A DNA stretch of 64,000 bases from contig OX387197.1 of assembly GCA_947561715.1 (NCBI GenBank), positions 23,958,266 through 24,022,265 on the forward strand. The letters are read 5' to 3'. Origin of the DNA: Ascidia mentula. Taxonomy: Eukaryota; Chordata; Ascidiacea; Phlebobranchia; Ascidiidae. A program made the translations under genes and the position numbers. Positions within the stretch are counted from its first letter, which is position 1. Every line of letters begins with the position of its first letter. Positions 2,713 to 63,536 of the stretch are shown here, piece after piece. The notes below the pieces were generated by a model, which did not search any database, was not told the origin of the DNA, and saw nothing but the letters and a program-made list of their open reading frames with translations.

Positions 2713-2867
2713 AATGCTGCAGGACGACAACGATAGGTTGGTTCGAGAGAATGAACTCCTTCAAAGAACGATGGAGGAAATGGAAACCAGGATCGAAGCC
2801 CAACGTCAGACTCTCGACACTCGGGACGAATCTGTCCGAAAACTCCTCGAAATGCTTCAATGCAAGG
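2713..2867 (+). CDS. ERC: ERC exon A (first exon in window)
   Basis: 155 nt. The acceptor is TTTCCCAG and the donor is AAGG|GTGAG. The exon starts on the third base of a codon and ends after the first base of a Gly codon. It encodes coiled coil with RENELLQRTMEEMETRIEAQ and RDESVRKLLEMLQCKG, a block strongly conserved in all ERC proteins (about residues 1-52 of the visible part). Confidence 0.95.
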
Positions 2868-5800
2868 GTGAGATTTTGGTATATTATCACTTGTACAAGA
2901 CGGTTCTTCTCGCAGCTAGGCTGGGCTCATATGTCTAGCAGCATCAGCAATGTATTGTTTGGGTAAATTGGTTGTATTGTAAAACAAAAAAGGCTCTTGG
3001 CCAAAATAGCCTTGTTTATATCATGAATAACCCTCAGTAGCAGAACTGGTTATATTGGTTTTGGGTAAACGGCATTAAATAGTCTTCATTTTTTTACATA
3101 AACGTTTTGGGCATTGTTGTTTATTTACACTATCTGTTTATGATTCGGATACCCAACTTTCGCTTGGAATCTACCTTTAGGTCTTGTTACCTATAATGTG
3201 TTTTTGAACTGTTTCCCAAACACCTCTTGTCGGTATTGCTGGTGGTGCGGTTTGTAGTGAGCAACCCTTGTTACCGACAAAAACTAAAAATGAAAACTAA
3301 ATGTATAAAAAGCAGGCAAACATGTTTGACTCAAAGCTTGTAAAAATACGACATGTGGTGAGATTTAATGGAATATGTATTTTACCCACTTTCGTCGACG
3401 GACGTATGCGGTTGCGCCTGACCAAAAAGTTTAATTTTGCTTTGTTGTGTCATAAAACATCGAAAAAGACAAATTGGTCTCAGAGTTTGTAAACACACAA
3501 GACATGTTGTAATATTTCCTATTTTAATTGGGTTAATGCTTCACGCATTTTGCGTCGATGCGTTATGTGGTTGCGCAATTCCAAGTCATCGTCGTATATT
3601 TAACGACCTAAAATACCCCTTATAAGCGAACGCTAAAAATACGCGGAGATTACGCAAATACTTCACATACAGTCAGCAAACAAATCGACCAGTGGTTTTT
3701 ACCTTCGAAAAACTTCCCTACTGAGAAACATTTCTCGTTCCCAGCACAATCCACCCTCCCGTGATTGTTACGTCACGGAGCGTGCCCGCCCCATCGCTAC
3801 GTCACAAAACTTCCCCGCAATAACGTTTGGGATTGTTTTGTTATTTGGTCAGTCACGCCTTTCCAGTGTCATAGAACGTTTTAATTAGGATTGCGATGTA
3901 AGTTTGCGGTGAAACTGTTTTTGCGAACGGAAATGGGACCTTTTCTCGCCCTGCGGAAAATTTGACAAAGTTTTGGTTTTGTTTCTCAACTAATTTTGTT
4001 TTTCAAGGGCACAAATTCAACTTGGCAGTTGGTTTTCAGTACATTTTCACAAAATCGATTTTATATTACACGAAAAAACTGTCCTGTTTTACTATTGCTT
4101 TTACTGATACTCTTTTGTGGGTAATATATAGAGTTTTTTGCATCATATTTCTGCGAAAAGTAATCGTCCGTATTTCAATTGTTGTCGTAACGTCATGACA
4201 AAAACTTTGGTGTTAAATCGACAATTAATCAAAACCACGTGATTGGGGTGGATTCAAAGGCGTCACCGCCTTAATTGAGAGTGATGCGAGCATATATTAT
4301 CCTTGTCATCGTAATCTGATATAACATATTCGTTGGCATGGAAAATGCAGATGTTTTTCCTATAGTGGGTTAAGCAGCCTTTTAAATGTAGTGTCTCAGG
4401 TTACAAACTATATCAAAATGTCAATGAATTGGCTTGTCAACCGTTTTGTGTGTAAAACAATGTAATAGTTTTGATTACACTATACACAGAGCGTTAAAAT
4501 ACGACCTCTTAAAACATTGGACGTGCCGTGGGTATTCCCCGGAGGTTGTCTACCCCTGACCTAAGCTTAACATTTCCGATATGACTTGAGGCTGCAATGC
4601 ATGTTAATAGGGGATATCCACTTTTGGTTCTTAACGTTCCAGCAAATATTTCTACCCTCGTTCTTTAATGCTCAACAGGTTTGTCAAAATCGGACGATTT
4701 GAGTGTTGTGGCATCGGTGGAAATGGACGCCCTCCGAGTACAGGTTTCCGATTACGAAAGTCGACTCGCACACAGCGACTTGCTGCTCAGTGAGAAGGCA
4801 CGAGAATTGCAGAAGCTGAGGATGGTGGGTTCAAATCTCGGCGTCAGCATGTCGAGTTGTTTTGGATGAGGCCTTTTAAAATCCCGTATTTTCGCTAAAA
4901 GTCATTGTAATATCGGTAACTATCTGATCGAATTTTGAAAAAAATATTTGTTCTTTTCGCATCATGCAATTAATTATGGCTGCAGTCTGAGTTCGTAACG
5001 GAAAAGTGTTATGGTATTTTATTGACTGTTTAACTTTCGCTCTTTGAGTGTTATAAAGTGCTATCTGTTTTTAGTGATAGCTTTATTTGTTTTTATGTCA
5101 TGGCCGCAACTTTTTTAGGATGCTGAGGTTTTCAACAATTCCCCGGGAAAATCTAAAGCCATGAAATCTGCTTTGGAAGCAAAGGTTGGTTCATGTTCGT
5201 ATTATAGACGAGGTTTCTTGCTGTAACTCATAACACTTACAAAGCTTTTGTATTTTAAGCAATAAAGCCAATATTATGTTTAAGTGATTAAGCTGGCCTA
5301 TCTCATTAGTGGTCCTGTGTGCAGCTCATTTAAAACACTTTGTATTTAATGCAAATTTTCGTTGCATTTACCAGTGTTATTCGCACAGAGCTATTAGATA
5401 TACAAATGGCTGCTTTTTTACCAGTAAAATGAAAATATACCCGACTTCAATGCGTTATTATTTACCAGTAAACCTCTTGTAACAAAACTGAGGTGTTGTA
5501 TATGGTTGCTACAGGATACGAAGATTGCGTCACTGGAGCGAATAATCCGAGAGTTGGAGGAAGAAGTGAACTTGGCAAGAAGCGATGGAGCGATATCGAG
5601 TGCGGAAAGACAGGAGGAAATAAAACAACTAGAAGTTTACAAAAGTCACTCCAACTTTATGAAAACCAAGGTTGGTACAATATCGCGATATACGTTATTT
5701 TTTTAAACTTCTGTTCAGTTTTTTTTTTCAGTTGTATATGAGCACTTATATTCTAATATTTGAAATTAAAATTGCCTGAATGTCATTTTTCATTGACATT

Positions 5801-8800
5801 GTCTGGTTTGGCGGGACTTTCCTAAATGGATGGCGGGACTTTTCCTAATATTAAGTTAAGCCAAGTATAAATTGACAAACCAACCATTTTGTCATATAAC
5901 TACGATTTGCCAATCACTTCATGCTCAATTCCACTACTGGTCTTCAATTCCTTCGTTCTTGCTCTAAACCTACCACAACCAATTGACATTTCTTCCATTT
6001 TTTCCACGTTTACCAGATCGAGCAACTGAAGTCGGATCTTCAGAAAAAGGATACGGAAATGGTTTCTCTGCAGACGAGGTTGGACACTCTGAACAACCAG
6101 CAGTCTGACAGCAGGCAGCATATAGATGTATTGAAAGAGTCTCTCACCGCTAAAGAACAACGGGCCGCAATTCTTCAATCAGAGGTTAGCGTTGGAGATG
6201 AGCTTCGTATTTTTAAGCGGCTTTACTGCAAGTCGTTGTTGATGAAAAAGCCATGTTTCTAAAAATATGTTAATTTTATTTGCACGAAATAGCGCGCATT
6301 TTGGTTATTGCGTCTAACTTCTAAATGTTTGGTTATAGTGGCGATTAACTGGTTTCTAATTTCACTGTTGGGTTACAAATTTAAGGAAATGTGGTTGTAT
6401 AGCTAGGTGCACATTTTATTATTCGTCCGTGCAGCAAATTAATCCCAGAAGTAAACCAAGACTCTCAACAATCCTTTTATTCTATTTCTTACAAAAGCCC
6501 TTGATTTTCAATTCCGTTTCCAAGCAACGCGTATTGTTGCCAAGCAACGCCTGTTTTCTTGCTCACCAGGTCGACTCCCTGCGTTCCCGTCTGGACGAGA
6601 AGCAGAGAGTGATCGACCAGAAGCAGGAGCATCTTTCCCGCCTCCAGGAGGAAAGGAGCAGCAACGGATCTGAACTCTCCCACCTCCGAGACACTCTGGA
6701 TGTCAAGGATCGGAAGATCGCCGTCCTCCATAAAAAGGTCGGAGAAATGTTCTGTTGCGAAATTTTTTATTGTCGAATTGGTTTGAACAAATTTAACAGA
6801 GTTTGTTTATAAATTATTTTTTTTGCAACAGTATAACGTAGTTAGATCTGTTACTATTACCAGATTGAGAGCCTTGCGGAAGTGGTGCGGGAAAAAGATC
6901 GTCAAATCGCCGCCAACAGCGAGCGACTCACCGCCCTCCAGCAGGACTCCTCTACGAGCGATTCTGCACTCTCCACAATGGAAGAGGCTCTTACCGAAAA
7001 AGTAAATTGTTGTGCTCTCTGTTTCTTACCCGATGTAGAATCGTGGGCATAGAATTTGGGTACAAGATTATTCACAGCTTGATTTATTCAGTACTTGGAA
7101 GTCGTTTTGAACGCACCAGATATTATTGGCTGCTAGGGTAGTTTGCGTCCATTGTAAGTGTAACAGCAATTACCACCAGACCACCAATCTTATTAAAGTA
7201 TAACCAATTTACCGACCAATATACCAAGAAAAAAAACGATTGTCTGCAATTCTGGGTTCGAATCCCGGTGTGGTAAAAAAATGAATTGTGTTTTGGGACT
7301 TTTCCACCAAAGCTGTGTTTTCTCGGCCATTCGTTTTATCATTATTTTTATTATTAATTTTCAAGGACAAGGTCATAGAACGACTCCGCACCTCTCAAGA
7401 CTCCACCGATGAGAAATACAGGGAAGAACTCGAGGATTTAAAGAAAGCGAAACGAGCGCTCGAGAAGAGACTCGAAGGATTGCAGAAGAATCTTGCCGAG
7501 AAAGAGGTAAATCCCCCCATGTGAAACCACTCCCATATTCACAGAATATGATTGAAACAGTTGTTGCGTTTTGCTTTTAGACTGAAATCAGATGATATGT
7601 TGTAGTTTGTTAGTTGTACCGTTGTACGAAGTTTTTCTGTTGGCGGATTTTCCAAGTATAATTTATTTTGTACTGGTTTTCCTAATATTTGTAAAAAATT
7701 CCGACAATCACCGAAAACGACTGGAAAAACGAAATTGTTTGCATCAAGATCAAATAAATACTGCATAGAATTCCGCTACCCTGCATTAGGTCAACTCTTG
7801 TTATTATTTTCTCCAGTCTTCACTTGCTGAACTGCAGGAACACGCATCCTCTCTCGCCTCATCCGCTCTAAAGAAAGACTCGAAGGTGAAACAGATCGAA
7901 ATATTCCTCCAACAGAAGACGGAGGAAGTTGCTCGAATTTCCTCCCAACTTAAAAAGGTTTGCTAAGTTGCTCTCTACCGCCCCCAGCAACTAACAGATT
8001 TTTATGTATTCTAGGATTTTTCGTTAGGTTTGTAGTTGTTAGTAAAGAGAAAATAGCGGTGGCTATTCATTTTGAGGGATAGATTTTGCTTAATTTAAAT
8101 GCGTTAGTCCAATACTGATTTAAGTAAGATACACAAAATCTCTTTCACCTAAAAGCGCCAAGGATGATATCAATATGTTGTCGAATCTGCACCAGAATAA
8201 ACGCCCATCGTACGAGGGTTGCGTGTAAAGTTTCCCATCTACTCGAGTTGGTTAACGCCGTGGGTGCCAACCTATAGAGGCATGGTTCCAGGGTGTCCGT
8301 GAATAAGCGAAAGCAGTCTTTCCAACTGAAATTTACCCTTCATGCTTCCCAATTGTTACAGTTTTTATTAAATCGAAATTTGACAACTGTTGCAAGAGCT
8401 TAATCGTAATAATAATTAGGAGGTCCGCAGAAGGTCCATGAGCACAAAACGGTTGAAATACTCTGGGTTAATGTAACCACACCATCTGGTGGCGCTGTTG
8501 AGGCGTTTACCATAGCACACCAAGTCAGGACTGACGATTGGCAACACCATCAAGCGTCTAACCCATGTACCAAGATAAAAACCTAAACAGGATTTCTGCC
8601 CAGGATATCCTGGGTTCGAATCACGGTGTGGTCAAAACAATTTATAACACGGTCAATTTGGTGTCGTTAAGCCAAACGTTTCTTTAACCAATGTGAATTA
8701 CAGACCTCCGAGGAACACGAATCTCTTCAAGTAAGAACGCTTTGCTGACAGCAATGAATTGTTTTTTTAGCTCTTTGCTCTGCGAGTAGTTTGCAGTTTA

Positions 8801-11800
8801 ACAATTTGCTTTTTTTCAAGGGTGCCGCATTAATTTTGATTAGTTTTGCTTGATTTCTATGGTTTGCCGGTGCGTTTGAATACTTTTGACTTTGAATTAC
8901 TTTTAATCTTTTATTTATTTATTTCCTTTGTTTGGCAATAACACGTACAATGGCATTGTAGTTAAATGCGTTTTTTCCTGCATGCAATAAAAATACTTAC
9001 ACGTTTTAAGTTAATTTTATTGCTAACATTTGTCACCACTCAGTGAAACACACGCGATTATCGTAACCATTCCAATGCACTAATTTTCCTAAAAATAATC
9101 TTCATTTGCTCCACCAATGCCCCTGCGCTTTAACAAGCAATTGTACCGACTTTGGCCTTACTGACGTCATTGTGTTACGTCACACAGGCTCAACAGACGT
9201 CAGCCTTGGCGAGGACGAAGGAGGAAAACAAGGAGAAGATCGAAAAGCTTGAAAAGTCGTTGGCGGAAAAGACTGAGGAGGTAAAATTGAATCAAGCTTG
9301 TGCAGATAAAAGTCTTCGGCTTTTTTGCTTATTGCTTTGTTGTTTTCGTTGTCAAGGTGACGAGAGGGCAGGGTGAGCTCGATAGACTTCTGGAGATTTT
9401 GAAAGAAACCGAAAACGAGAAACACAATAAGGACAAGAAAATCATCGCCCTTGAAAAGTGAGACAATAGTTTCTATGTCACCACTGTTATTTTTTTATGG
9501 TGTTAAGCAGTGGTTTTTATGCTTCGGCAACTACACAACAAATATATCAGTTTTCAAATTCCCTTTGTTTGGGCGAGATCCAAACCTTACTGAAACATTG
9601 GTGTTGAGCATAATATGTGTGAGCATGGTATTGAGCATGGACAAAAGCAAGTGATTGGGGCGGTTTTAAACCAACGAACCTGTTATGTTTATCATCAGGC
9701 AAACCCGGGATCTTCAAGCTCAGATTAAATCCCTGAATGCGCAAATGCTTGAAGAGATAAAGAAAAAGGGAGCTGCCCAAGACAAAGACCTCGCAAAACT
9801 ATTGGTGAGTTTCATCCAATATTTTTTCCCTTACGTTCACTTACGCATATCTCTTGACAATTATGCGTTGTTCCAAATTTCCACGTTATGACAAAAATAA
9901 AAGAAATACGACACTTACACCACTCCATACGGTTGTATGTCATACTGCGCAATCTGCAACAACCATAATACGCAACCAGTTAAGAATATTTTTTGAATTT
10001 AATTATCATTTCTTTGCTTCTTCATACTGCTACGTGTGTACATAACACGTTGGACAACATGACACGCTCTTTTAACCACCAGCGTCAAATGAAAACGAGA
10101 GATGAGAGGATTGATGAGCTGGAGGAAGCTCTCCGTGAGAGCGTGAGCATTACAGCCGAACGGGAGGTCGTCCTCAGCAAGGAGGAAGATGCGAGACACA
10201 AAGTTGAAAAGCAGGTAAGAAAGAAGAAGGCAGAAGTTTTAAACGACCCGGATATTTTGCTTCTGTTGCTACCGAGCTTTGTATAATATCCAAGTGCTGA
10301 CTGTATTTAATTAAACCGATGGCTTCCCTGCCATATGGTTTAAATGTCGGATGGCTTGTGCCGATTACTCGGATATTAACGTTGTTTTTCGCACATTATT
10401 CTGTAACGTTGTCAAAAAAAACCTTCCTTTCTAACAAAGGTGTTTGTTTTATTGTTTTTTCACCCGTTGTATGTAAAGGTCAGTAATTTATCAGACCGTT
10501 CACAGTTTTATTATGTGGCGTTGGCGGTCGATTTTACAGTAAGGGGTTATTGTGACATCATAGTTACAGCTAAACCGGTCTTGTGCTTCTACGACCACAA
10601 AAAAAAGATCGGGTTGGACTTGCAGAGTCTTGACTCACGAAAATCCATGAAATGTCCCTTTTATATCAGTGTTACAAATTGCGTTTTACACAGAACGTTT
10701 AAACGACGCTTAAACTTCTGTTGTTCCGAATCCACAGATGGAGGAGTTAGTCCGGGAGTTCGAACAGACGAAAACGATCCTCAATCAGACAGGAAGCAAA
10801 CTCGCCGCATCGGAGGCATCACTCCATGAGAAGGATCGTTGCATCCAACAGATGAGGATCGAAAGGAGGAAGAATCTGGAAGAAGCGTTGGATGTAAAGT
10901 AGGTGTTACCGTAGATTCAAGTAGTTTTTGAACACGGTCTGGCCTCGCCAACCCAAACACCCAGAACCGACACAAAAATTATCAGGAATTTATGTATTTC
11001 CGTGCATTGGCCCCTGCAACTTTCCGATTTCGTAAATTTGCCATAATGTGACGAAGCAAAATAAATAAAAGAGGTCTGACTGTATGTGGAAATAATATTA
11101 ATTCCCTTGTTTCAATATAATTAGCTCATTTTTACAGATTTGTGCGATGAAAAAATGAAAAAAAAATGACTGGTGCATATTATTGTGGGTGACTTTTTTC
11201 TCGACCCAACTTTATTTATATAAAAAGCTTTGCTTTGTGTGAGGCCGAAGGCAAAAGTTTATGAAATAAGGACAGAATTTTTGAAACAAATTGGTCCCTA
11301 TACCGAATTACCCTATACCGATACATTTAACTCTGTCCTTCGTGTTACCAGGCAACAAGCGCTGCTGGCTGCCATCAGTGAGAAAGATGCCAACATCGCA
11401 TTACTCGAACTCTCCCAGTCCCGGAAACGCACGAATGCGGACGAAGTTTGTCTTCTGCGCAGAGAGAAGGACAAACTGGTCCAACAACTCAAACAACAGG
11501 TGACTATGGAACCGAAACATTCCGCACATTGAACAAATTTGCGTGTTTGCAACAATCGGAGAGTTTTGTTCGCTTGGTGGCAGGCGCAATCTTTGAAGAG
11601 TTCAGGCTGTGCGTTGTTGGCTTGCTGTGTTACACACGCACGATGAAACGTCGAGCGAGGTTGTTTTACTTTGCGTGCGAAACTACCGTCAAAATGTGTT
11701 TTACTGCGTTGGGACCGGGCTTTCTCTTTAAGAGGGGTGCTACGATCCAAAACCACGACAGACGAGGATATGGTCGTGAGTGCGCCAGATAAAGCACCCT

Positions 11801-15923: not shown

Positions 15924-15928
15924 CGTCA
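15921..15928. promoter_or_regulatory. CRE palindrome overlapping the ERC stop codon
   Basis: TGACGTCA begins with the ERC TGA stop. It is an exact CREB/ATF consensus; function is unknown. Confidence 0.3.
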
Positions 15929-16253
15929 TCCGGCATTATTAAAAACGAACAGCAAACAGCGCCACCTTGGGGAGCGCTGGTTCTCAGTGCAAGCACAGTC
16001 CAATCATCCACTTACTTGCAAGCCAGTTCAGTCCACTTTTAAAGCATGGTTTTTAGGTCCTTCATTGGTACTCGATTTCTTTTTCTCAGTTTTTTATATG
16101 TTTATGTCGCTTGGTTGCACTTCTCTGCCTTGCTTTAAAGTTAGGCCTCCGCAACGTTTTCGCAGCACCATCCTTTGAAAGCCCGTAAAACAACTTCGCT
16201 TTGAACTATGTGTCTTTGAAATTCGCCTCAAAATTCTCTTGCTACCCACACAG

Positions 16254-16383
16254 ATACCTGTTGAATTTGCCGAATTGTTGCGCGAATTTTTTTTCGTCAG
16301 CCGAACGCTCACCTACCAAGAAACCGACCTCAGAACACGCGCGCAGTATTCGCCATTCATATACCTTTGTTCCGAAGTACAAG
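16254..16383 (+). CDS. weak candidate exon of unknown product
   Basis: An acceptor-like CCACACAG is followed by 43 open codons and a donor-like CAAG|GTGTGT. The conceptual peptide begins IPVEFAELLREFFFVSRTLT and looks helical and protein-like. I cannot name a family and see no partner exon nearby. It could be an alternative ERC 3' exon, an exon of an unrecognised gene, or chance. Confidence 0.2.
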
Positions 16384-16934
16384 GTGTGTTAGTTGACTTA
16401 CCATTCTTCCCACGCAAAGCGCAGTTCGACTTCAGTGTTGGCCCAAAGTTCTGTGCCATGTAGAAATAGTTCTTCCTCGCATATCTGATATGCTTTCGTC
16501 AAGACTGCCGGAGTCATTGGCGGGAAACTGCCCAAGTGATTCTTGAAACCGCTTTTGACGACATTTGGTAGCTCTCATGGGATCAAGTAGCAAATTTGTA
16601 ATAACTGCGATCTGCGGAACGGTGCAGTAAAGTTGAAACAAATGCACTGAGTGGGAATTGAACTAATATGTCATATTTTCTTTGCCTGTTTTTGTTGAGT
16701 TTTGCTGTGCTTAGATTTCTTCCATTATTTGAGACCAAACTATGAAAACATCGCCACATTATTACGTCACAAAGAAACTATACTGGTGCGATAAATTGAA
16801 TCGATTCTCACAATTCGATCATTGGCCCTCGCGATATACCAGAATACACGTTCCCGTATAATACAAATGTGCACCACCTTATTGAAATTAAACTTTTTTT
16901 CACCGCGCTTTTGTTCTGTCTTCGCATTATTATG

Positions 16935-16955
16935 TGACGTCATGCAATGACGTCA
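16935..16955. promoter_or_regulatory. paired CRE palindromes, 13 bp apart
   Basis: Two exact TGACGTCA sites at 16935-16942 and 16948-16955, separated by only 5 bp and starting 13 bp apart. This is the densest CRE cluster in the window, about 1 kb after the ERC stop. Confidence 0.45.
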
Positions 16956-17202
16956 CGCACCCACTTGCGCAACCGATCATGGCGTCGCTGCATTTTTTCC
17001 TGCAAACGCATGTTAAATGTTTATGCGTCAGTAAAAGTTGTCGACTTCAGACCACGTGATCGTGATTCTCTCTGGGAATGGGAGTAGGTCAGGTTTTAGA
17101 GGCAACACGTGACCATGTAAAATCTTGTCCAATTGAATGACTCTCAGGTTCTACAGCCGTGGTTTTGACAGCCACGATTATTGTAATCAGCCTATATGCA
17201 AT

Positions 17203-41775: not shown

Positions 41776-41824
41776 GAAAATGCATATATTTGCATACATA
41801 TCTGTCTGACAAATACAGTTTTGT

Positions 41825-49500: not shown

Positions 49501-50979
49501 TCATGGACTCGTCAAGGATTCATGCAGGTTTGGAAATATCACGGAACAAATGGTATTTTAATAGGGAGGTCGAGGTTTTGTGTTCTAGGGTTATATATCG
49601 GGTGATGGTTTGTGGTGTTATAGATTGGTTTTTAAAGTGAAGTGATTTTAGGTATATGTGAACTAGCAACGGTATTTTGTTTTTTCCATCCTTTATGCTT
49701 GATCCAAATAACGATTTTTCAAATAGCCAAATTGTTGAAACCTTGTTTCGCGTTTCGTTCGTGGCGTAGTAATTGATTCCAGAATGTTGTTAACTTCGCG
49801 GTTTCGCTGATAAATGCGCAGCCCGCGTTCGTATTTTGGCAATTTTTGACTCGCCCATAATTGCGCTCAGTCCGTTTTACGATGCTCACCGAACTTGGGC
49901 GTTCATCAATTAACGCGGACACAACTCGCCTACTCAAACCCAGGTTATACTCAAATGGGGTCGAAAATACATTAACGCCATGATTGCCATTTTGCCGTGC
50001 CTTGGGTTTAAACGTATTTTGCGGGTTCGCAAAGCTTTCACCGACCTCTGGCAATTGCCACTTGTCTTTCCAAGGGTTTCAACGTGTCCGTATCGACCGG
50101 GAGTGCTAATCCCCCAAGCAAGCAGTAAATCAATTCTTGTCCCGCTAAAAAGTGTTGATGAAACTCAAACCCAAAAAAGAGTTTTCATGTAAGTGTTAGA
50201 AAAATTTTAAATGCTCCGTAATGGAAAATTCGCAGACGTTAATATAATAGTGGTTAAACTTTCTCTTAACTGCCAATACAAGTTAAGAATCAAAGTGTAA
50301 AATAAGTAGCAACTTTGTTTACGACTTTGACAACCCTTTCAGACAGACAACTACTGGTACACAATGCAGTTTGGGTTGAAAGTCTCGTAGGATAGACGCT
50401 ATTCCCCAACGCCGTGCAACCACACCCGATTCTTTATAAAAATGCCTGGATTCTTCTGGACCACTGCTTCAATCATGCCGCGCATCATTTTGTATCGCTA
50501 ATTGTTGTTTACGATCGCTACGGAAGTGGTGATGAAAGGTTGCAGCTAGAAAGCGGCCACGAGTGTATTTGTCGCAATTGGTCGTAAAACGTTCGCGTCC
50601 CAGCCCATAGAAGCCGCCCGATGACGCGAACGCGGGCGGTGTCAGTTTCTATTAAAACGCTGTAAATCAACCTTTTCATATCCGCTGTTTGTCAGATTTT
50701 ACGTAAGGTGTGTTGGGCCTTCGTCGACGCGCACTCCCTAGTTCCCTTCAATCGTTCTAATCGATGACGTAGCGGTTACCCCGTCAAGCACGCTTGGCCT
50801 CATGGTTTATACAAATACAGGTTAACGCAAATGTTTTTGTTTCAAACGTTTTGTTTAGGTGGTTGGTAGTGCAGAATTTATGGTATTACAATATGTATGG
50901 CTTCGCCATATGACTTTGGTCCTAGTTAAATTAAACATCCGTTTTTATCGAATTATAATCACCGTTCGCGATATTGCGG

Positions 50980-51184
50980 CAAATTGCAACTGACTTTCTG
51001 TAATATAGCGGTATCGCAGACCTAATTATAACTAAGAGTGATGTTTAAACGAATCCAAGTCATGGCCGCGTCTACAATTCCTTGCGTTTCTGACCGCCAT
51101 ATTCATATATACTTTTAAGATCGTTATTCGAAAGCCGGAATTAAATCTTCGTGCGGCAAGTTCCGGCCGCAAATTACAACTGAC
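50980..51184 (+). repeat. spaced direct repeat of CAAATTRCAACTGAC
   Basis: CAAATTGCAACTGAC (50980-50994) and CAAATTACAACTGAC (51170-51184) differ at one base and are 190 bp apart. Both sit in a stretch with TAATTATAA and CCATATTCATATATA motifs. This is suggestive of a cis-regulatory module. Confidence 0.4.
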
Positions 51185-51589
51185 CGACCGAGATATGTAC
51201 GTCTTTCTTGATGCAGAAACACCAAAAAATTAACCAGAAATACAAAGCACTAAGCAAATTGCCCACCTCCCACTACACTTAATTGCTTCGCCTCCAACGT
51301 CGTGCGTTATCTTGAACTTGAGCGCCGGGTAATTACCCAAACACCAAGTGGTTGCGAGTTGAAAAGGTTGATTCGTTTGTCTTTTTGAGAAACGTCCCAA
51401 AGTTGTTTCCCACTAGCGAAAGTAACTGGTAAAGTAAGCATCGCGTGCCTAGATGCGTTGCGTATTTGGCAATCAGCTTCGGGAAGGATAAAACGCTGAT
51501 AGACGAAAGCTCTTTTTGTCTTACGCCACCGCAGAAGCGCAAAAAAAGTGAAAGAATGAAAATCTTTCTTTGACACGTATTGATGTGCT

Positions 51590-51597
51590 TGACGTCA
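51590..51597. promoter_or_regulatory. CRE palindrome TGACGTCA
   Basis: Isolated exact CREB/ATF consensus in the intergenic interval. Confidence 0.3.
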
Positions 51598-53659
51598 CCT
51601 CGGGGTATGCTGCAATGCATCCTGTACAAAGTGTGAAACATTTTAAACGGTCTTCAAATGCTTACTGAGAGCCCATATAATCTTGCCCACGCAAAAATGC
51701 TTATTTGAGTCACGGAAGTTTTTTTTGTTTTGGTAACTAGTGTTGTTAGTTTAAACTCGTTAGGAAACAGATTATTTGACTTTTGGAGACCAAACTTTTA
51801 AATTCCAGAATGACGGTTCAGGTATTTTTCAATAAAATACGATGAAACTTCACAAATCACTACTACGTTCCTTTTTCGAACCGAATGTTTTCTGTACTTC
51901 TTTCTTTTACCCCATGTCCACTTGCATAAAAAAACACTTGGTGACAGTTTACTTTTCATCTAATGCTCACAAAAAATGGATAGACAACTCCATGTTTAAA
52001 ATCGTGGCCCTGGCCGAGAAGATCAACGGATTGCGGCCCTGCTGTTTAGGAGGCCACAGTCGACCTTTGGTACAAACGACATTAAGATATCAACAATAAA
52101 CATGCACGCCTTATCGGCGCGTCCCAAGCAAGCCGCACAAAAATAGCAGCTCTGCTCTTCTGGCGAAACAATTCTCCTTCAGTGCTAATAAGGCAAAACC
52201 GTCGGATTCTTGAAAGCATGATCCTCTACGAATTTTCGCGAAGAACGGAGATAATCCATTCGATCGTCGAAACATTTCGAAAACACGTTTTGAAATCCGT
52301 GCCCGGATCAAGAACGGTGGATGATCGAAAACACCGCCCACTCCATCTACCATCTCTACCGAATTTGCATTTTGGGATTGCTTGAGTGGTTTGATGTTGA
52401 AAACTTGAATAGATCTGAAATTTGGGTAAGAAACTAAGGATGCTTTTCTTCAAATCGAAGTATATATGTCTTATATATTAAAACTGACTTGTATTAACCT
52501 GGAAATTAACGTTTCCGTGATTGTGGTATAGTTCTGAAACCGTAACAATTTCTGGGGTGCATTTTGGTGCAAGGTCGCTTTCTAGAGATTGCTATTTATG
52601 TGGGAATGCCAGACATGTTAGAACGATAAAGCTCTCTATGTGTTCCTTGCGTTGACCTTCACCTCCATTACTCGTGTGCGGCCAAGAGGCGAGATGGGGG
52701 GGCATTGAAATAACGACACAAATTGTATAATTGGGGCTGTAATTGTCGGACCACCTACAACCCGTGTGAGTATATAGTTAACTATTTAAGGTATAATTGC
52801 TGCTAAAATGGGCTACGTGCACGTTTTGTCGATCGGTTCCTGGTATTGCGGTCTCCATGTGCAGCCTGCTGGGTGGAACCTGGCATAAGCATCGCCAACT
52901 TGAAGAAAAACAAATAGGTTTGCGGCAAAAACGTTGGGTTCTTGCGATATGCTTGTGTTTTGTTAAGGTTGGATTTCAGTGCAAGAGATATATCTTCGTT
53001 TTTTTGGGCCATACTTTTGTTGTATAGTTTAATACTAAGTGATTTATCTGAGAGCTTTCCTATTTGCAAAGCTATATGCCACACATACTTTATAATGTGA
53101 GAGATACAATGTTGCTGGGAAAAGAGGGTATAGTTGATACGTATAAAACTCGGGATACTCCGGTCCGTCAAGAAAAACATCCGGCGACCTGGTCACCCCG
53201 CCCCGGGCTAATGGGCGGTTCGGACAGAAATAGATTCCCCTCGACGACCTGCAACAACATAAATACGCTCCAACAAAGGCAACACAGCGCAGGGCGAAGG
53301 GGTATGACTCCACTTGACGCAATAAATTAAGTTAGGCAAGCGCAAATGTCGTGGGACTCCCAACTCCAAGCCGTGCGAATAAAATGCTGCGGTTGCGTCA
53401 CACTGTAACGACCGGGGACTCTATATCACAGGCGAACATTTTCTCCAGGCCCAACCCAATTGACGAAGTTTTGCCGGCCCTGCGGCTTTGCCTAATAATA
53501 CACGGGAGGACCTTCCGTGTGGCAATTTCTGAATCGCGTTGCGGTCGACGCGTATTCCACGCCTAGCGTCTGTATTAAGCCCCGGCGGTTGTGTGGTAGA
53601 GTCCCATGCTCGTCAGATGGGGCACATACCAAGTGTTGGAGTGCGAAACTGGTTATTTA

Positions 53660-53667
53660 TGACGTCA
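53660..53667. promoter_or_regulatory. CRE palindrome TGACGTCA
   Basis: Exact CREB/ATF consensus about 100 bp downstream of a CpG-rich patch. Confidence 0.3.
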
Positions 53668-54216
53668 CACTCGCCTTCTCTTGATGCCTCGGCACGACAG
53701 TAACAATGCATTCTGTTGGCGGGGTATGCGAAAAATGCTACTACGCCCCCTGTTGTACATATCGCACCCCCTTATTGATGACGTAAGGCGTTACTATTTG
53801 CGCTCGGATGCATTCGAAGGCAGATGACATCATACTTGGTTTGGTTTTGTTTGTCCTTGTGGGAAAACCGGCGGAAAAGGAATTTCTGAATGTTGTTGGG
53901 CGTTTAGAAAACGGGCGTTGTACTTTCATCTTCGGGTGTGAATTATGTTTACGCATCTCTTGCGAGTTCCAATTCCATCAAGACATTTTCAACCATTTGC
54001 ATCAATGAAACGTCGCGCTTCGAATGAACTTGTGCTGACCCGTTCGAAAATGCTACAGATCTGTGGAAGTTTAAATTGCACAATACAAGAACATACATTG
54101 CATACATGTAGCCAGTTTCGAGCGCCGTAAAACTTTACCATGCTTTGTAGGACAAACGAATGCCATAGAAGCCTTTTTGCATTGTGCTTAAATTGCACAT
54201 GGTATAATTTCCTATG

Positions 54217-54245
54217 AACGAGCATCTGGAGAGGAGATGCTCGTT
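54217..54245. other. perfect 11-bp hairpin
   Basis: AACGAGCATCT, loop GGAGAGG, AGATGCTCGTT. Two wobble pairs extend the stem. It is too short for a microRNA precursor and could simply be a chance inverted repeat. Confidence 0.6.
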
Positions 54246-54756
54246 TGGCGTTTTGACAAATGTTTGCCCGATTCTTGGAATTCAGAAAATCTCTGTTGAA
54301 CCTTTGAAACGGCTTCCTCCAATCTTAGGTGTTCGATTGAACTCAGCCTTAAAAGCACATATATGGTGTAGCCTATTTTGGGAGTTTCCTAGCGACGTTC
54401 TCCTGCAACTTTTCCCTCATAATTATACGTCGCAAATACGCTGCCCGTCAAAATGACTCCGACGTCGCCCGACTCGCGATATCGCATTGTGGTTTTTCGC
54501 ACACTTTCCGACATAGTTGCGAAATGCGGCGTCGCCTTTGCGGTGATACGAAGGAAGTGTTTATGCAGGATTTGCTTCGAAACTTCGCGTGGTTAAAGCA
54601 CGATAATGTGGGGCCTTTGGCGCCACTTTGCCGAAATTGCTGCAAAAAAACGTAGTGTGTTGACGTGTTTGTTGGATGTTTGCGGCGGCGAAGACCTCCG
54701 GCGTGTTTATGATGGAGATAAAGAGAAAGATTTTTTTTCGGTTTGTTATTTGTGTG

Positions 54757-54788
54757 TTTTAGCACGCTTCAAGCATGTTGTGCTAAAA
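54757..54788. other. 9-bp inverted repeat with nested GCATG motifs
   Basis: TTTTAGCAC and GTGCTAAAA flank a 14-nt loop. GCATG/CATGC words in and after the loop allow alternative pairings. Confidence 0.5.
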
Positions 54789-56752
54789 ACATGCAAATCA
54801 TGCTAGCTTGATACAGATTTCATCAATGTTTATGTGAATTCGGCGTGTTATCGGTGTCCAAACAAACACACCCACGAGAGTGGCCCAAGAGATTGTCCGA
54901 CAGTCGCCTATAACATGTACGCTTTTATGCCCTTCGACCTTGCAAGAATACGGTCCCTATTTTCTCAAACAAGTCCCGCGTTATCTGCTTAAAGCCGATT
55001 CCTTGTCGGAGTCGCTAATTTTCACCTCCAGTACAACAAGTAGAGATTTCATCATCGATCGAAATCCCATCACAAACAACCTGACCGTTTTCTCTCGAAG
55101 AACGCTGGGTCTATTTTGGTCCGTGCGTCTCATAGCTCCCGTTTCTGTCCGGAACGCAAGTGATTGCCATTGAGGGAGGATACATAGGCGGGAATTATCT
55201 TCGAGTTTCCATTGTCTTTTACCAGCTTACCTTACCCGATTTCGAGTGGATCGGTAGGTTGGGCCTCTTCGAGAACGATCGTTATCGTCGCTTCCGTCGA
55301 TCCCGCACACGTTTCAAGATTTCCCGTTTTCACTCGGGCCGCATTTTTTGTTGGATCTCAACTGAGTTTTTGATTTACAATGGAATTGATCTTCCGGCTT
55401 AAATTAACGTGGTTTATTTCTCCGACGCTTCGTCTGCCATACACAGCAAGGCTTCGTCACGGTTTAACACCTGGTTGCAGCACACCTGGTAGCAACAACA
55501 GCACAATAGTTTTTAATTGTTTTTGTCGAAAGTAAACGCGAGATACACATGGTATAAACATTTTAGCAATATAATCACATTTATTGTAAAAAAATCTATA
55601 CTTTATCATAGATACTGCTGCCAGAACTAATCCAACTAAAAATTTGTCGAAAGTCACTCATCGATTTCGAGGTACTTAAACCTAGCAGCAATGTTTTTGT
55701 TTTGTACCGTGTTGTACTTCCACAGCAATGCTATGTTAAAGTTCCACAATACCAGTCTGCATTGGTTATAGCGCATTATTTGGCAAATTACCGCCATGGA
55801 TTAGTGTTCTATTGTTTCGGTTGATTCAATGTCGTCATGTTTGAAGCGGTTTCATAAGGCTTGTGTAGACTGGTGCAGTAAACCTGGGACTGATTTTGAA
55901 AAAGTCAAACGTGAATTTTTTATCGCTGATATATCGCTGAACGAAACGCTATATGTGAGAAACGGAACAACGTCCAATAACATACTGGTTTTCAAAATCA
56001 AATTAGGCCCAAGCGAAATAGCCTAGAAAGGAAACATCGTGACAGCTTAATCAAGATTTCCAATCCAGACCGTGCACTATCTTGTTTGTAAGTTGCCAAT
56101 TGGCCGTGAAGGTTGCAAAGACACGTTTGATGGTACCATATCTTTCAGCTTGCAAATTATACACTTGGAACATGTTAATTTTAGAATCGTATATTGAAGT
56201 TATCAGCAATGCTAAACAAGATTTTCTGTAACGAAATATTGGTAAAAATGTTCTGTGACGACCGAGTTCCATAAAATACATAACAAACATTTCAGTGTAC
56301 AATTCTTCAACGTAGAATTTCAACGTGTTATTCAGATTTTCAATCGTGGTTCGCAGAAAGGTGCCTCGGAATGTAAATCGTTGTTTTGGCGAATATCGCC
56401 GTTCCATCCATACCATTATAGCGCCATTGTTAACTTCATTCCAGTCATACCTCAGCAATTGTCATTACCGCTGTACAACTGAGATCTGGCACCCTACTTG
56501 TTAAGCGGACGGCCCTAAATCGTTTCATAGAAGCTCTCGGGCTAATTACTCCAGTTCAAGCGCAAAGCGAGGCTAAAGTATCGATAAATATCGCCAAATT
56601 AAAAGCGTTTAGGGGTTCTCGAGGGCACTCGAGTCTCGATGGTGGGCGAGATATTGAACTTGATGTTGTTGTGGTTTGCGTTAAAATTCTTGAGGGATAT
56701 CTCTTGGCCCATTACAGACAAAATCGCGTCAGGTTTCGTTTCGAAAGCTTTG

Positions 56753-56788
56753 CCACGTGTACTGGATCATCCACGTGTGTTGGATCAT
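56753..56788 (+). repeat. 18-bp tandem duplication with E-box-like words
   Basis: CCACGTGTACTGGATCAT is followed directly by CCACGTGTGTTGGATCAT, with two mismatches. Each unit begins with a CACGTG E-box. Confidence 0.75.
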
Positions 56789-59700
56789 CTGTTGTTGTGC
56801 AACAATAAAACGGCGGAACAACGCGTAAACCTGAATATGTTGAATGGTGCCAATGTTGAAAAGTAAGCATGTGCGTTTGGTGGCGTGTGGAACAGTTTCA
56901 CCTCACTTCAATATACGTGACTACTTTGTCCCGTTCGCAAACAATGCAAAAATGCTTCTTTCCACCTTTAAGCGTTTCTTGTTCAACATGGTGTCTCAAG
57001 TTTTTGTTCCCTTACCGATATTTAATTCGAAGCCGAAAAAGAAAAGATTATATTTTAGGCCTGGTAGCAATATGCGTTGAATGGTCTTCTTTGCCAGCAT
57101 CTACTTCATACGGCGGTTTTGCGAAATGCGCAACTCGCCGGTGGTGAATGAGGCGTATCAAAAGAATGTGTCCTTTTTTTCGACAGTGGTTTACAACAAA
57201 TTTGAGCTGGATACTTGAGGTCCAAGCTGTCTTCCTAGAAGAGATTTCGGAGGGCTTCGCGTAATTGCTTGCCTGGTCGCTCGAACGAGACAAGAAAACG
57301 GCGAAACGGCCGACTCAAAATCGTTGCACTTTAAATTAACAATGGGCCACTTGTGGTATCTTAGTGTTTGCGCCTTTATGTGACTCTTGTTTGGAAGGTT
57401 TCGACCATCGGGTCATTGTCTGGGTCTCGTATCTGCAAAGTGCAAGGCAAGGCACTGCGTTTTCCAGTCGCAAATGGCTGACAAACATGCGCCGGGAGCT
57501 GACATGGGATGAACGTTTGTCAAATACTTCGATCAAAGAAATCATGTTGGCCTAAAGCACAGAGCGAGGTGGTATAGAAATGAATGCGTTCGCCGCACTT
57601 TAAGCTCTTCAAATACAAATCACAACAGATTCCCCCATTAATGAGCTTGTACACGGAAACATCCATAGTCACTATGAGTCGTAAAAACTCGAGTCTAGCC
57701 ATATCGTCAAAATCATCAAACTAACTATTTCCGATACTGCGAGCCTGCAACGGACAACCTCGTGGGAATTTGGACGTATGCAGTCAGTTCCACGCCTATC
57801 GGCCAATCCCAAGTGTGTTCTTAATTCAAGGCACCAAAAATAATTCAAATTACCGCCCGCTCATCGGGTTTGGTCCGCGACGGGAATTTCCCGGTGCGCA
57901 GAAATTGATATTGAACATATAAGTGGCGAAAGTCTCGTCCCCGGCGCCCGGGTGTTATTGTTTGCTCGGTTAATTGCTGGGCGGTTTGCTTTTCATTCGC
58001 TGTGGTGAGTCGAAATTATAACATGATCGATTGCTCATGTGAAGGATGGTCGAACTGGTTGAAACGGGGGACTTTTTTCTTTAAAGATTCAAGGACCGAT
58101 TTCTAAACAGTTTTCCTTTTTCTCAGAACCATTCACAACATACAGCTACAGTTCACACAAAATATCTGAAGCATTTCACACCAGTCTTATAATTGTATAG
58201 AAATGATTCTTTAAAAAACATCAAAAACTTTTCTATAACATTTAAATTCAACGAGAAAAATCGTTTTTTAGTGGGTTCCAGGTCGGTGAAAACTTTGCAT
58301 AGCAGTAAACGTCCTAGTAAACCATTTAATACCACCAACTATTTTACGCACGCACCTCCTATTTAGGTGTTATGAAGTATTTATCAACCATTCTTAGTAA
58401 TGCCACCATCTAGGCACCCTCTAGGAAAAGGTCTTGCGCCCCTGGTTAAAAACCTCTGTTCCAGAGCAAAATCACGATATCATAAGGTTTTCCAGACAAT
58501 GACCGAAATCATTGACAATTCTTTTCCTCCAAATGGTCCAAGTGCGACTTAAAGGAAACGTGCAGAGATTCAGACTTGCACAGATCAAATTGTCGGCTTG
58601 TGAGCGACTATTATCGAGTCACCATTCTTGCTGAGGTCTTGCAAAGTGGCAATAACTCCGCCCACCCATCTGCCAAATCCGTATACCAAGCTGCTGGCAT
58701 TTAAACCAATGTCGCGAGTTGCTTTCGGCGTTCTCCACCTCCGGCAGTCCATCACACACCTGCTAGCAGAAGTGATTGTAACGGTTGTTACAAGTTTTTT
58801 TGTACCTTTGCTGAACGATTTTGAAGTGTTTTTATTAAAGCGCAGATGCCGAACGCCGCTGGACAAATTAATTCCATGACAAACTGACTAATGGCGGTCT
58901 AGTTAAAAAGGTTATCGGGCCGTGCATTTTTTCATATCCAAGCAAGTATTGTAGGATATACGCACAAGAGGTTTAGGTGGCGTCCATTTAAACAGGTCAT
59001 GTAACACATCAATATGAAATTATTTTTCTTTTGAGAGATTGCGATATATTGTCTGTTCTTACTGGTTTGTTCCTGTAAAGTGCAATCTAGGTGGACGTGA
59101 AAACTAGTCAAGCACACAGCAAATACTTGTAAGTATTTCGGTGCGTTGTCCACGGACCTTTGCCTTGAGAGATCCTTTCCCTGTCGAAAACGCGTTGAAC
59201 GCGGGTGACTTGACTTGTTAATACGCGACGAAACATTTTAATCCGCCGCTTTCTCCTGCTCTGAATCGCGCACTTGATCAGGCCTGAACGTGGCAAGCTT
59301 TTAGCGAGGCGACTCAAATAACAAAACACACCGGGCGTAAGGGCCGGGCCGCCGGTCGGAAGGCAGCGATATGGGCGCAATGGGCCTCTAATTTCCAGAT
59401 GCCCTTCCAATGACCTTGGATCTAAGAGATGCGCGAAATGCCATTTGACTAACTCAGCTATGGTCTACCGGTCGTTGAACGCTGTAGATCAGTTGCAAGG
59501 CGGACGGTTTGGTCAAGAGGGTTCTCCAGTGAAGACAGAGAGGAAGCATCTCATTAGGTTTTGTGTTTTGCCTTAAAGCAGTAAACTTTGGAAACGTATA
59601 TTTGAACACCATGTGAATGTTGTTCAATTACCTTTTTACTGTCAGTCCCGTATATACAACAGACATGCGTCACAAGTCTCAGTCGGTTTGTCTGTGTGTG

Positions 59701-60075
59701 TTTTGGTGGTTGCACAAAGTATCCAGAGCTATGGTTGCTGGTCTCTGAGTTAAAATTTAGTTTTGACTGAGTATTCTACAATTTTTGAGTGGCCGAGGCA
59801 TATTTGGAATTTGTCAAAATTATCTACTGGAAAAGTGCTCGTATTGGTATTCCGCGTCATTGACTAAAAAACACTTGTATATGTTTTAACATTAAACAAT
59901 GAATCATTATGATCGAAAAATTGGCCAACGTTTTTATCATCTAATTATGATCCCATCATCTAATGCTGGATAGGGGTAAGAATTACGCCCGGAGAATATT
60001 CTTCTGTGCGGGTGGAAGCCACCGTCCCCAAGGTGAGAGCGAGGGACCCCAGGAGTGCAAATTACCGGTGTTTCG

Positions 60076-60085
60076 GCGCATGCGC
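60076..60085. promoter_or_regulatory. NRF1-like palindrome
   Basis: GCGCATGCGC inside a CpG-rich stretch (about 60000-60200), 3.4 kb upstream of the Wnt5 start codon. Confidence 0.3.
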
Positions 60086-61829
60086 GTCAGGTACGAAGTC
60101 TGCCGACGCACCCCGGGGAGATCTTGCATGAATCAACCGGGGAAGTGCGAACCCCCCCTGCGAGTTGACTCGGAGCCAAATCGGTGCAATTACACGCTTT
60201 TTCATGTGTATCCGAGGGTATATATTTGCCCTTCTCTGCTACGGTTGTCATTATCGGTGGAGGAGCACAGGAGAAAGTATTCAATGCATGAAAAATGTGT
60301 TTGCGTATGAGCTTAGAAAACCACGCACTAAAACAACCAATCAAATAATTTACAGTTATATTACAGAAGCGAATAGTTTGTCGCTTTATAGACGTAATGG
60401 TTTTGTAAAGGAGACAAAATAGCGTTTCAGATCACAAAGGCAGAAGGAAATTTTGAACAAAAAAATATCAAAACGAGTAAAAGCATCTTTGTTGGACGAC
60501 AAAAAACTTGGAAGTTATTGTGGCCGTGGTTGGCTTCTAATGTTGCCGCTTGAAATCCTAAATACTCATTTCGCTTAAAATTGTAATTGCTTTTCTCACG
60601 GGCGATGAAATACCATCATTAGCACGTGACAGAAACGTTAATTTGCGCACTTTCAGTGTTTACCTGCGTGATAGTGCATATACGCACCATAGTGCACTGG
60701 CCACTGATGTTCTGGGCAACCGCCATTCCGACGCATCAGAACAGTTACTTGGCAGCCACGAACGGTTGTGGCAACCTGGGCAGAGGCATCGTAAAAGCAC
60801 GCGTAATATCAGGCGAGGTTCGATCGAGTGTAACGCGTCACCTTAATTCGATCTTGTATCGTTACAGACGAGTGCGATATTGCGATCCAAACCGTGTTTA
60901 ATCTATGGATGACTCGATCCTGGGAATTACATAATTTTCCCCGTTATTTTTCCTTGTGGTTCTTAGTTTTAAAGGTGTTGTTAACCATTAACAAAGCATT
61001 GGTAGAGTGTCAAAGCTCTGGAATAACACTTTTGGGTCGCAGGACAGTTGTGAACGTAATATAGAATTTCGAAGGCAAATATTGAGCCTAGTCAATTGCA
61101 TAGCACGGGAAAAAAGCGAAAAATCGGCACGCATAAAGCAAAGGTGAAAAAGCGTAGGCTTGCCCGGGCGAACTTGAAATTGACTCGAAAGGTTCAACGT
61201 AGCCTCAGTGTCAAAATTCCTGCGCTCAGTGCGGAGGTAGATGAGGTTTAGGCGAAAGGGTAATTTTCATTCCTTTGCCGAGGCAGTCATGTTTGTTCAA
61301 AGTAAGCAAGTCCTGACGGAAAATCGAGTTTTAAGTCAGCGTGAGTGGAATCTTCACAGATTAGAGTATGTCCAAGCAAGTTTTGAATAGTTTTTTTGTG
61401 GTAGTTTAAAAACCGATGCAAAATGACAGTATTGTTTTAAACCAAGGATAAGTGAATGAAACATTTCTGTTCAGTAAAGCGCTCGGGCAAAATTTAGATA
61501 CCATGTACATTCTATGGGGCATTTTAATATTATTATAGACGAAACCAATGCAGAACCAAGCAAGTTACATTGGCCAATACGTTCATACACAGTAGCTTTT
61601 ACGGCAAAAATGCAAAAGTTGGAGTCGGCGTTGATACCGGCCGGCTGTTTTGAACATCAAACAATCACATTAAATCAAGGTTGGTGGAAGTAATCGCGAC
61701 GCCGGTAATTGTTATCTGTTCCAGACATCGCGTTTAGGAATCGAAACGGCGGTAACACATGCTCTGACACATTGTCCAAGTTTTAACAAAATTTCAAACG
61801 CGGCCGATGCAAAAACTGCCATTTCCGTG

Positions 61830-62300
61830 TTTCTAGTGCGCCACAAAGCGGAGAAAATGACCGGCTGCGGGTGCATGAAGGGCTCGGGACGTTTATGACG
61901 TCACCAACTAGCCATTGTTACGTTTCCCCTTCGGACAACTGGACACCGCAATGACGCGAATGGGAAGTTGCACAAATTGTGCGCGCGGGGGAACAATGCC
62001 TGCATGCGGGTTCCCGCAGTTGCCATAGCGCCCCGGGGACTCGCTATCAATGTGTTGGGAAAACAGCAGCGGCGGCGAGCGGTGGCCATTATACCACGTT
62101 GCCGGGCGGAGGATCGCAGATGGCAGAGAATGGAAATGGAAGGTTGTAAAAAAGTTGTCGCTCCGCTGTCGGGCCCTTTTTATGCGCTCGCCAATTTCTC
62201 TAGGTTGTAAATCAACGATACCGCTGTCGTTACATGTTGTTCTGCAGCAGCCGAGGGGCTTATCTCCGGCAGTGTGAAGACAGCGCAGACGCGTGCTCTC
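61830..62300. promoter_or_regulatory. CpG-rich patch upstream of Wnt5
   Basis: GC- and CpG-rich DNA (for example GCGCGCGGGGGAAC, GCGGCGGCGAGCGG) carrying a CRE palindrome at 61896-61903. It lies 1.1-1.6 kb upstream of the Wnt5 start codon and is a plausible proximal regulatory region or alternative promoter. Confidence 0.4.
61896..61903. promoter_or_regulatory. CRE palindrome TGACGTCA near Wnt5
   Basis: Exact CREB/ATF consensus 1.55 kb upstream of the Wnt5 start codon. Confidence 0.35.
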
Positions 62301-62639
62301 GGTAAAGCATTTAATCAGTTGTTAAGAAAAATTTGCCACGCCGAGACGTACTGGATAAGACATTAGCTGCTGTACCGAAGTGCACCAGCCGCGTTTTAAA
62401 CGACTGATATTAGCTACCTTTGCTGGTTCGTTTAACCGGACCTTTCAGAGGCTAGTGTGGTTCAACAAAGCGTTAAAATCGTTTCGAACGTAACTTATTG
62501 TGTTCGGAGATGCAAAGCACACATACAAGCTAGAGGTCAAACACCGCGTGGAATTCGGCCAAAATGGAATTCCAAAGCGATAAAATATTGACATTGACTT
62601 GAAAAGAGCGAGGAGTCGGGTTGAGAAAGTTGACAAGCT

Positions 62640-62952
62640 CGCGGGTGGAAAACATGTTGAACTTGTAACGAATTCGCGAGATTAAGTGGACAATTACGCT
62701 CGATTCGGGGTTCGCGTGCGCGACATCGGGCTCCCGCGCAGCATGGCGTCGTGGGAATGGCAACAGTGGCGGAGAGGGTTTGTGTCGACTCTCCAACTCG
62801 CTGCTTTTCACACCCAGCTGGATGCGCGGCGAGCGAGAGATGCGGAGAAAAAAGCGCGAGGCGCGAATGCCTACCGTCCTCGAACGTTGTCGCATTGTCA
62901 GAGAAGTGAGGGGTAGGCTGGCCGCCGGACGTGTTTCGTATCTTCTCCAGTT
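62640..62952 (+). other. probable Wnt5 promoter/5' UTR exon
   Basis: A CpG-rich stretch ending in a strong donor, CCAGTT|GTAAGT (62953). A strong acceptor follows at 63295-63296, so a 344-bp 5' UTR intron is likely. The transcription start cannot be placed; no clear TATA box is seen. An upstream ORF lies inside. Confidence 0.5.
62743..62916 (+). CDS. upstream ORF in the Wnt5 leader (57 aa)
   Basis: The ATG in GCAGCATGG is a strong Kozak context. The frame encodes MASWEWQQWRRGFVSTLQLA and a basic, Arg/Ala-rich tail, and stops 36 nt before the proposed donor. It matches no family I know. If the leader is transcribed from upstream, it would sit in the Wnt5 5' UTR and could damp translation. It could equally be a meaningless frame in CpG-rich DNA. 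Confidence 0.3.
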   Translation: MASWEWQQWRRGFVSTLQLAAFHTQLDARRARDAEKKARGANAYRPRTLSHCQRSEG

Positions 62953-63296
62953 GTAAGTGTTGAAAGATTTAGTGACAGACGCGGTGTTCTTGATTTTGTG
63001 TAGGCGTTGGAAAGATGAGGCTTGCTGCATTGTCTTGAATGCAATTTCAGCAGTTTATCTAAAACAAGATATAAAGCCAGTTGCTTCTTGGCCTTTGCCT
63101 TAGGCGTGGCGTTGAAGAAATTTCAAACCGCAAGTGGTATAAGGTTGTATCCCTTGTAATAGCTAGGATAGTTTACATTAGAAATGGGAAATATGTCTGG
63201 TTTTAGGTCAAGCTTCTCTTTTTATTGTGATGGCATCAGTGGGTGAAAGTTTAAAAAATGATGATCTTAACGATTCTTACCTTCTTGTTTTCGCAG

Positions 63297-63444
63297 TGCA
63301 TTGTAACTGTAGCATAAGAAGTATTTTCTTGCTTGATCGAGCTTCCACAACCAGGCAAAACTAGAAACGAGTGGATTTACGTTTGCCAGCAAAAGGATTT
63401 ATTATTTTTCCCCCGTCGATAACGAAGATACTTCAACGTCAAAC
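63297..63444 (+). other. Wnt5 5' UTR, second leader exon
   Basis: It starts after a strong acceptor, CTTCTTGTTTTCGCAG (AG at 63295-63296), and runs to the Wnt start codon. It contains no upstream ATG in frame with the Wnt sequence. Confidence 0.5.
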
Positions 63445-63536
63445 ATGCGTCTGATCTCCCGCGGATGTCTGAAATTTTTCCCGGTCTTCGCAGTCATGGC
63501 AGTTGTCTGCCTGCCGAAGGCGCATTCACATTGGTG
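63445..63536 (+). CDS. Wnt5: Wnt5 first coding exon, signal peptide (3' partial)
   Basis: Wnt proteins are secreted, lipid-modified Cys-rich ligands for Frizzled and Ror receptors; Wnt5 mainly drives non-canonical polarity signalling. The ATG has A at -3. It encodes MRLISRGCLKFF, then a hydrophobic core (PVFAVMAVVCL) and KAHSHWW, with the last Trp codon split TG|G by a good donor, GTAAGT. A signal peptide followed by WW before an intron is typical of the Wnt5 and Wnt2 first exons (vertebrate Wnt5a NSWW, Wnt2 SSWW). Wnt5 is favoured by linkage to ERC. The Cys-rich body lies beyond the window, so this assignment rests on about 31 residues plus synteny. Confidence 0.78.

Follow-up and report, generated by a model that had tools for sequence, protein, structure and literature searches.

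A same-strand gene pair in the ascidian Ascidia mentula: ERC upstream of Wnt5, with no recognised gene in the 47.5-kb interval

The ERC and Wnt5 genes

The stretch of DNA analysed here (the window) comprises 64,000 nucleotides of chromosome C1 of Ascidia mentula (C1:23958266-24022265). It carries an ERC (ELKS/CAST) gene and, downstream on the same strand, the first coding exon of a Wnt5 gene, with no recognised gene between them. The features are listed in Table 1.

The whole genome (195.8 Mb in 79 contigs) was searched with the Cast profile, PF10174. This gave at least 12 matches, a lower bound, and 12 of the 12 lie on the + strand within C1:23953832-23969770 (best E 7.5e-30). Among the matches listed, this gene is the sole ERC locus of the genome. 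Its matches span profile positions 21-761 of 766. Two of them fall upstream of the window, so the gene starts before base 1 and the window holds most of it. When the joined exon peptides were compared with solved chains, ELKS/ERC1 chains scored best, at 132.9 and 69.8 bits, followed by ERC2 at 50.9 bits; the fourth match, MRPL38 (24.5 bits), is unrelated. The last exon ends in IWA, which we take to be the C-terminal PDZ ligand of ERC proteins and, presumably, the ligand that binds RIM. We also assume that the frame with MKTRDERIDELEEALRESVSITAEREVVLSKEE, entered in Table 1 as a probable exon, resembles human ERC.

Table 1. Features of the ERC-Wnt5 locus. Positions are those of the window, counted from its first base; Cast coordinates are positions in PF10174.
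Feature	Position	Strand	Basis
ERC exon, Cast 120-172	2714..2872	+	PF10174 match, translation
Probable ERC coiled-coil exon with MDALRVQVSDYESRLAHSDLLLSEKARELQKLRM	4669..4869 (extent of open frame, not exon ends)	+	By eye from ORF list; no profile match of its own
ERC exon, Cast 237-294	5509..5682	+	PF10174 match, translation
ERC exon, Cast 289-352; best Cast match of the genome (E 7.5e-30)	6011..6211	+	PF10174 match, translation
ERC exon, Cast 340-404	6549..6743	+	PF10174 match, translation
ERC exon, Cast 402-448	6861..7001	+	PF10174 match, translation
ERC exon, Cast 448-496	7363..7509	+	PF10174 match, translation
ERC exon, Cast 494-547	7811..7972	+	PF10174 match, translation
ERC exon, Cast 575-608	9360..9461	+	PF10174 match, translation
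Probable ERC exon with MKTRDERIDELEEALRESVSITAEREVVLSKEE	10074..10235	+	Open frame; codon score 12.8 bits, inside shuffled range
ERC exon, Cast 643-710	10696..10899	+	PF10174 match, translation
ERC exon, Cast 710-761	11350..11505	+	PF10174 match, translation
Last ERC exon, DDGEGIWA and stop	15897..15923	+	Search for IWA and stop; AG acceptor before exon
ERC-Wnt5 interval, 47,521 bases, no recognised gene	15924..63444		Pfam, Rfam, codon and repeat scans
Wnt5 exon 1, coding part; signal peptide, split Trp codon at end	63445..63536	+	ORF 63337-63540; ATG at 63445; GTAAGT donor after 63536

The remaining exons of the Wnt gene lie beyond the window. On the same strand, the wnt profile matches four exon stretches between 3.6 and 9.0 kb beyond the window (C1:24025839-24031257). 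With the splices placed by eye, the protein has 363 residues, a signal-peptide-like start and a VCK end. The solved Wnts available for comparison covered Wnt3, 3a, 5a, 7a, 8 and WntD, and among these the best match is Wnt-5a (370 bits), followed by Wnt-7a (286), Wnt-3a (279), Wnt-3 (274) and Wnt-8 (225). In the reverse direction, human WNT5A picks this gene first among the 11 Wnt loci of the genome (322 bits versus 276 for the next). The two proteins also have in common eight extra residues after FAKEFxDARER that are gapped in WNT7A and WNT3A; this insert is presumably absent from Wnt2 as well. The columns distinctive of Wnt5 mildly favour the same class (25 of 127, versus 18 and 17).

Trees were built with Wnt3a, 5a and 7a as references, the classes without a reference being Wnt1, 2, 4, 6, 9, 10, 11 and 16. 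The window Wnt joins human WNT5A at 80/94 (nine rows), which is below the tool's mark for strong support (95/80). When a long-branch locus on contig C67 is added, this locus, the window Wnt and WNT5A group at 92/97 (10 rows) or 81/85 (14 rows), both again below 95/80. The window protein was joined by hand because the splicing script misplaced several splices at its locus. The models of the ten other Wnts are script-spliced and approximate, and 3 of the 10 contain an internal stop (entered as X in the trees). As far as the available reference classes tell, the gene is probably a Wnt5, with moderate tree support. Its assignment to Wnt7 was considered and ruled out, since Wnt7 is the locus at C1:18.23 Mb by reciprocal best match.

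The initial annotation, made from the window alone, had proposed an ERC gene ending in IWA, followed on the same strand by a Wnt signal-peptide exon. The Cast and wnt profiles and the splice sites confirm this, and the downstream exons that it expected were recovered and give a protein closest to Wnt-5a. Its placement of the gene with Wnt5 is supported as far as the reference classes reach; in the trees, the grouping with WNT5A was obtained at a support short of the strong mark and with three reference classes. It had also suggested that the DNA is from a tunicate, which is borne out by two features of the genome. The open stretch around COX1 on contig C79 fits the ascidian code (table 13): it contains 18 AGA/AGG codons, of which 16 fall within COX1 itself as judged by eye, and several of these codons sit, we presume, at glycines of COX1 motifs. 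In addition, the glycoside hydrolase family GH6 (PF01341) gave two matches above the cut-off (E 9.2e-6 and 1.1e-4). To our knowledge, tunicates are the only animals with GH6.

The divergent Wnt locus on contig C67 (C67:6974660-6975520) has few or no introns. Among solved proteins it is closest to Wnt-5a (158.8 bits, versus 119.5 for Wnt-3), and it joins Wnt5 in the trees by a long branch. Its distinctive columns show no preference for Wnt5 (13 versus 14 and 13 of 107). It is perhaps a fast-evolving or retroposed relative of Wnt5.

Pfam searches of the flanks identified several other genes. Upstream (C1:23908266-23958265) there are a neutral ceramidase (+) and Cast, with ESSS as a weak match (0.0026); a MAGUK-like set of L27, PDZ, SH3 and guanylate-kinase domains and GT61 are encoded on the - strand. 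Downstream (C1:24022266-24072265), the genes recognised past Wnt5 are on the - strand and include a propionyl-CoA-carboxylase-like set, RRM and ABC_tran. In this flank, 511 codons are also open at C1:24047259-24048791, and this stretch has a codon score of 16.3 bits.

The interval between the two genes

The initial annotation had described the genome as compact. The locus does not fit this description, as 47.5 kb separate the ERC stop from the Wnt5 ATG. There are no N bases in the window or in the surrounding 164 kb, which rules out a scaffold join as the source of the pairing, and both genes are strong family matches, so that chance resemblance is not an issue.

No Pfam family was found at E <=0.1 in 18 translations covering the six frames of positions 15930-60931 (45.0 of the 47.5 kb). 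As a control, the same method applied at E <=0.01 to 50 kb on each side recovered known genes, including wnt (3.5e-64) and Cast. Rfam gave no match in the whole 64-kb window. The interval contains no repeat pairs of 60 bases or more, no repeat families and no inverted pairs at 60 bases; four short tandem repeats were found in the tandem-repeat scan. Its GC content is 0.434; the corresponding values are 0.412 for the ERC part and 0.401 and 0.417 for the upstream and downstream flanks.

Coding potential was also assessed with a codon score, for which the ten other Wnt loci supplied 2,911 training codons and ten shuffled copies served as the comparison. The best score in the interval, 11.5 bits, lies inside the range of the shuffled maxima (8.2-13.9). 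The sensitivity of this score is low. For example, the best ERC exon scores 14.8 bits, and three Wnt5 exons reach only 12.7-13.6. The shuffled range is exceeded by only two stretches (17.3 and 16.0 bits) in the upstream 50 kb, where Pfam recognises genes, and by one (14.8) in the ERC part, although three large exons downstream reach 38.7-45.5 bits. As few known genes exceed the range, the score must be regarded as a weak test.

These scans bear on whether a gene lies hidden in the interval, in which case ERC and Wnt5 would be near each other but not adjacent. Pfam and codon scores can miss small or fast-evolving exons, the Pfam scan ended at 60931, and in gnathostomes Fbxl14 is the neighbour of Wnt5b, Erc1 being close to it (PMC2922100). 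The absence of any Pfam family from six frames of 45.0 kb, by a method that recovered the known genes of the flanks, nevertheless makes such a gene unlikely, and the codon score, weak as it is, points the same way. A hidden gene would be compatible with any of the explanations considered below. As far as can be seen, ERC and Wnt5 are adjacent. The length of the interval may itself be unexceptional for the region, since beyond Wnt5 no strong codon signal follows for 35 kb.

Published linkage and the other members of the Wnt5-7 block

The linkage of ERC and Wnt5 is not new. The initial annotation had allowed for this, and three papers already describe it (PMC2922100, PMC8851819, PMC9750109). Kapasa et al. 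(2010, PMC2922100) report for Ciona and fruit fly that Wnt5 has Erc1/2 and Fbxl14 in its vicinity, in a text that does not say which gene was found in which species. For vertebrates, the same paper has Erc2 adjoining Wnt5a, and Fbxl14 adjoining Wnt5b with Erc1 close by in gnathostomes. Of the human layout given in the initial annotation, ERC2 beside WNT5A agrees with that paper; that ERC1 sits just upstream of WNT5B is a loose statement, because Fbxl14 is next to Wnt5b.

Two studies from 2022 (PMC8851819; SYNPHONI, PMC9750109) assign ERC1/2 and Wnt5/7 to the same old block of bilaterian genes. Its members, as given in PMC8851819, are wnt5, wnt7, fbxl14, atxn10, erc1/2, cacna1d, cacna2d, ninj1/2 and dcp1a/b, and it is described there as gene-poor in most bilaterians examined. 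The linkage of ERC1/2, FBXL14 and WNT5/7 is treated in PMC9750109 as the older and firmer part. These reports, together with PMC2922100, agree with the proposal of the initial annotation that the pair is ancestral, and the Ascidia mentula pair can be considered old. Tunicates have lost 95% of the bilaterian-novel blocks in the sample of PMC8851819, a figure that concerns blocks and not pairs.

The other members of the block were sought in the genome. The Wnt7 orthologue is at C1:18228234-18232894 (-), identified as a reciprocal best match with three human-type references and supported in trees at 94/98 or 96/98. Wnt7 and Wnt5 thus share chromosome C1 at a distance of 5.8 Mb, and close linkage between them is absent. 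The ATXN10 profile, which we take to represent the C-terminal part of the protein, has one match in the genome, at C1:18226244-18226318 (+); in the fetched locus it matches in two stretches (E 3.9e-13). ATXN10 and Wnt7 are arranged tail to tail, their nearest profile matches being 1.9 kb apart. They form a second old bilaterian pair surviving on the same chromosome. With ERC-Wnt5 and ATXN10-Wnt7 both intact and 5.8 Mb apart, the break in the block fell between the pairs and split neither of them.

FBXL14 was searched for with an approximate query, which gave five weak leucine-rich matches genome-wide (best E 2.1e-7, 31% identity). Three of the five are on C1, 12-19 Mb from Wnt5. Neither the 45.0 kb scanned within the interval nor the 50 kb on either side yielded an F-box or LRR family, by a method that had no LRR control. 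Loss or strong divergence of FBXL14 in Ascidia mentula is possible. The Ninjurin search is uninformative: it returned no match genome-wide and no control matched either.

Other neighbours have moved. Both DCP1 matches are on C52, none of the eight HlyIII/ADIPOR-type matches is on C1, and of the two CACNA2D matches one is on C69 and the other on C1 but 3.9 Mb from Wnt5. Such dispersal speaks for passive inheritance, in which ERC and Wnt5 would be an old pair that has by chance stayed unbroken in this lineage, with nothing holding the genes together; the evidence comes from one genome and therefore provides no rate of loss. On the other hand, both of the pairs that were sought survive while the other members tested lie elsewhere, the 47.5-kb interval is a large target for breaks, and related pairings are reported across bilaterians (PMC2922100, PMC8851819, PMC9750109). 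We regard passive inheritance as a serious rival explanation, with a substantial chance of being correct that falls somewhat below even.

Why the pair persists, and comparison with known systems

The explanation that we favour, to which we would give about an even chance, is that an old bilaterian pair, seen here in its ascidian form, is a genomic regulatory block in which putative control elements of Wnt5 hold ERC as a bystander. We infer this from the length of an interval in which no gene was recognised, the survival of ATXN10-Wnt7 and the published argument for a regulatory block at wnt7-atxn10 (PMC8851819). The control elements of Wnt5 would be located in the interval and perhaps also in the introns of ERC. 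A break between the two genes would part Wnt5 from these elements, and ERC would be retained as a bystander without any need for Wnt5-like expression of its own.

An alternative, suggested in the initial annotation, is that ERC and Wnt5 are kept linked by shared expression or a common control region, as their common strand and long-term linkage might suggest. However, a common promoter is not favoured by the head-to-tail arrangement, in which the ERC stop and the Wnt5 ATG are 47.5 kb apart, and the role of a synaptic scaffold differs from that of a secreted signal. That the Wnt5-7 block mixes unrelated genes has also been read as showing no co-expression constraint (PMC8851819). Shared expression is thus less likely than either a regulatory block or passive survival, and we consider it very improbable.

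A bolder form of the regulatory block is that, in this ascidian, ERC-Wnt5 and ATXN10-Wnt7 are the two indivisible units to which the Wnt5-7 block has been reduced, breakage having stopped where the control DNA of each Wnt begins. We offer this tentatively and think it more doubtful than the simple block. If it is true, the units left unbroken in tunicates would mark the smallest stretch needed for each Wnt gene, and the controls of Wnt5 would lie within 15924-63444 and ERC.

The present analysis adds a Wnt7 orthologue on the same chromosome, about 2 kb from ATXN10, and hence a second old pair that has been kept. The locus also provides a bounded interval of 47.5 kb in which to seek Wnt5 control elements in a chordate. 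Reporter tests are routine in the ascidian group. Pairs that survive in tunicates are good candidates for linkage under selection, given the 95% loss of blocks reported there (PMC8851819).

The locus can be compared with three known systems. With Erc-Wnt5 of Ciona (PMC2922100) it shares the proximity of ERC to Wnt5 in a tunicate; it differs in coming from another ascidian, with no convincing FBXL14 near Wnt5. With the Wnt5-7 microsyntenic block (PMC8851819, PMC9750109) it has in common wnt5 with erc1/2 and wnt7 with atxn10, whereas here 5.8 Mb of a single chromosome separate the two pairs, DCP1 is on another chromosome and FBXL14 is unrecognised. Finally, although its regulatory elements are putative, it shares with the genomic regulatory block model, as argued for wnt7-atxn10 (PMC8851819), a signalling gene beside an unrelated gene and a long interval without a recognised gene.
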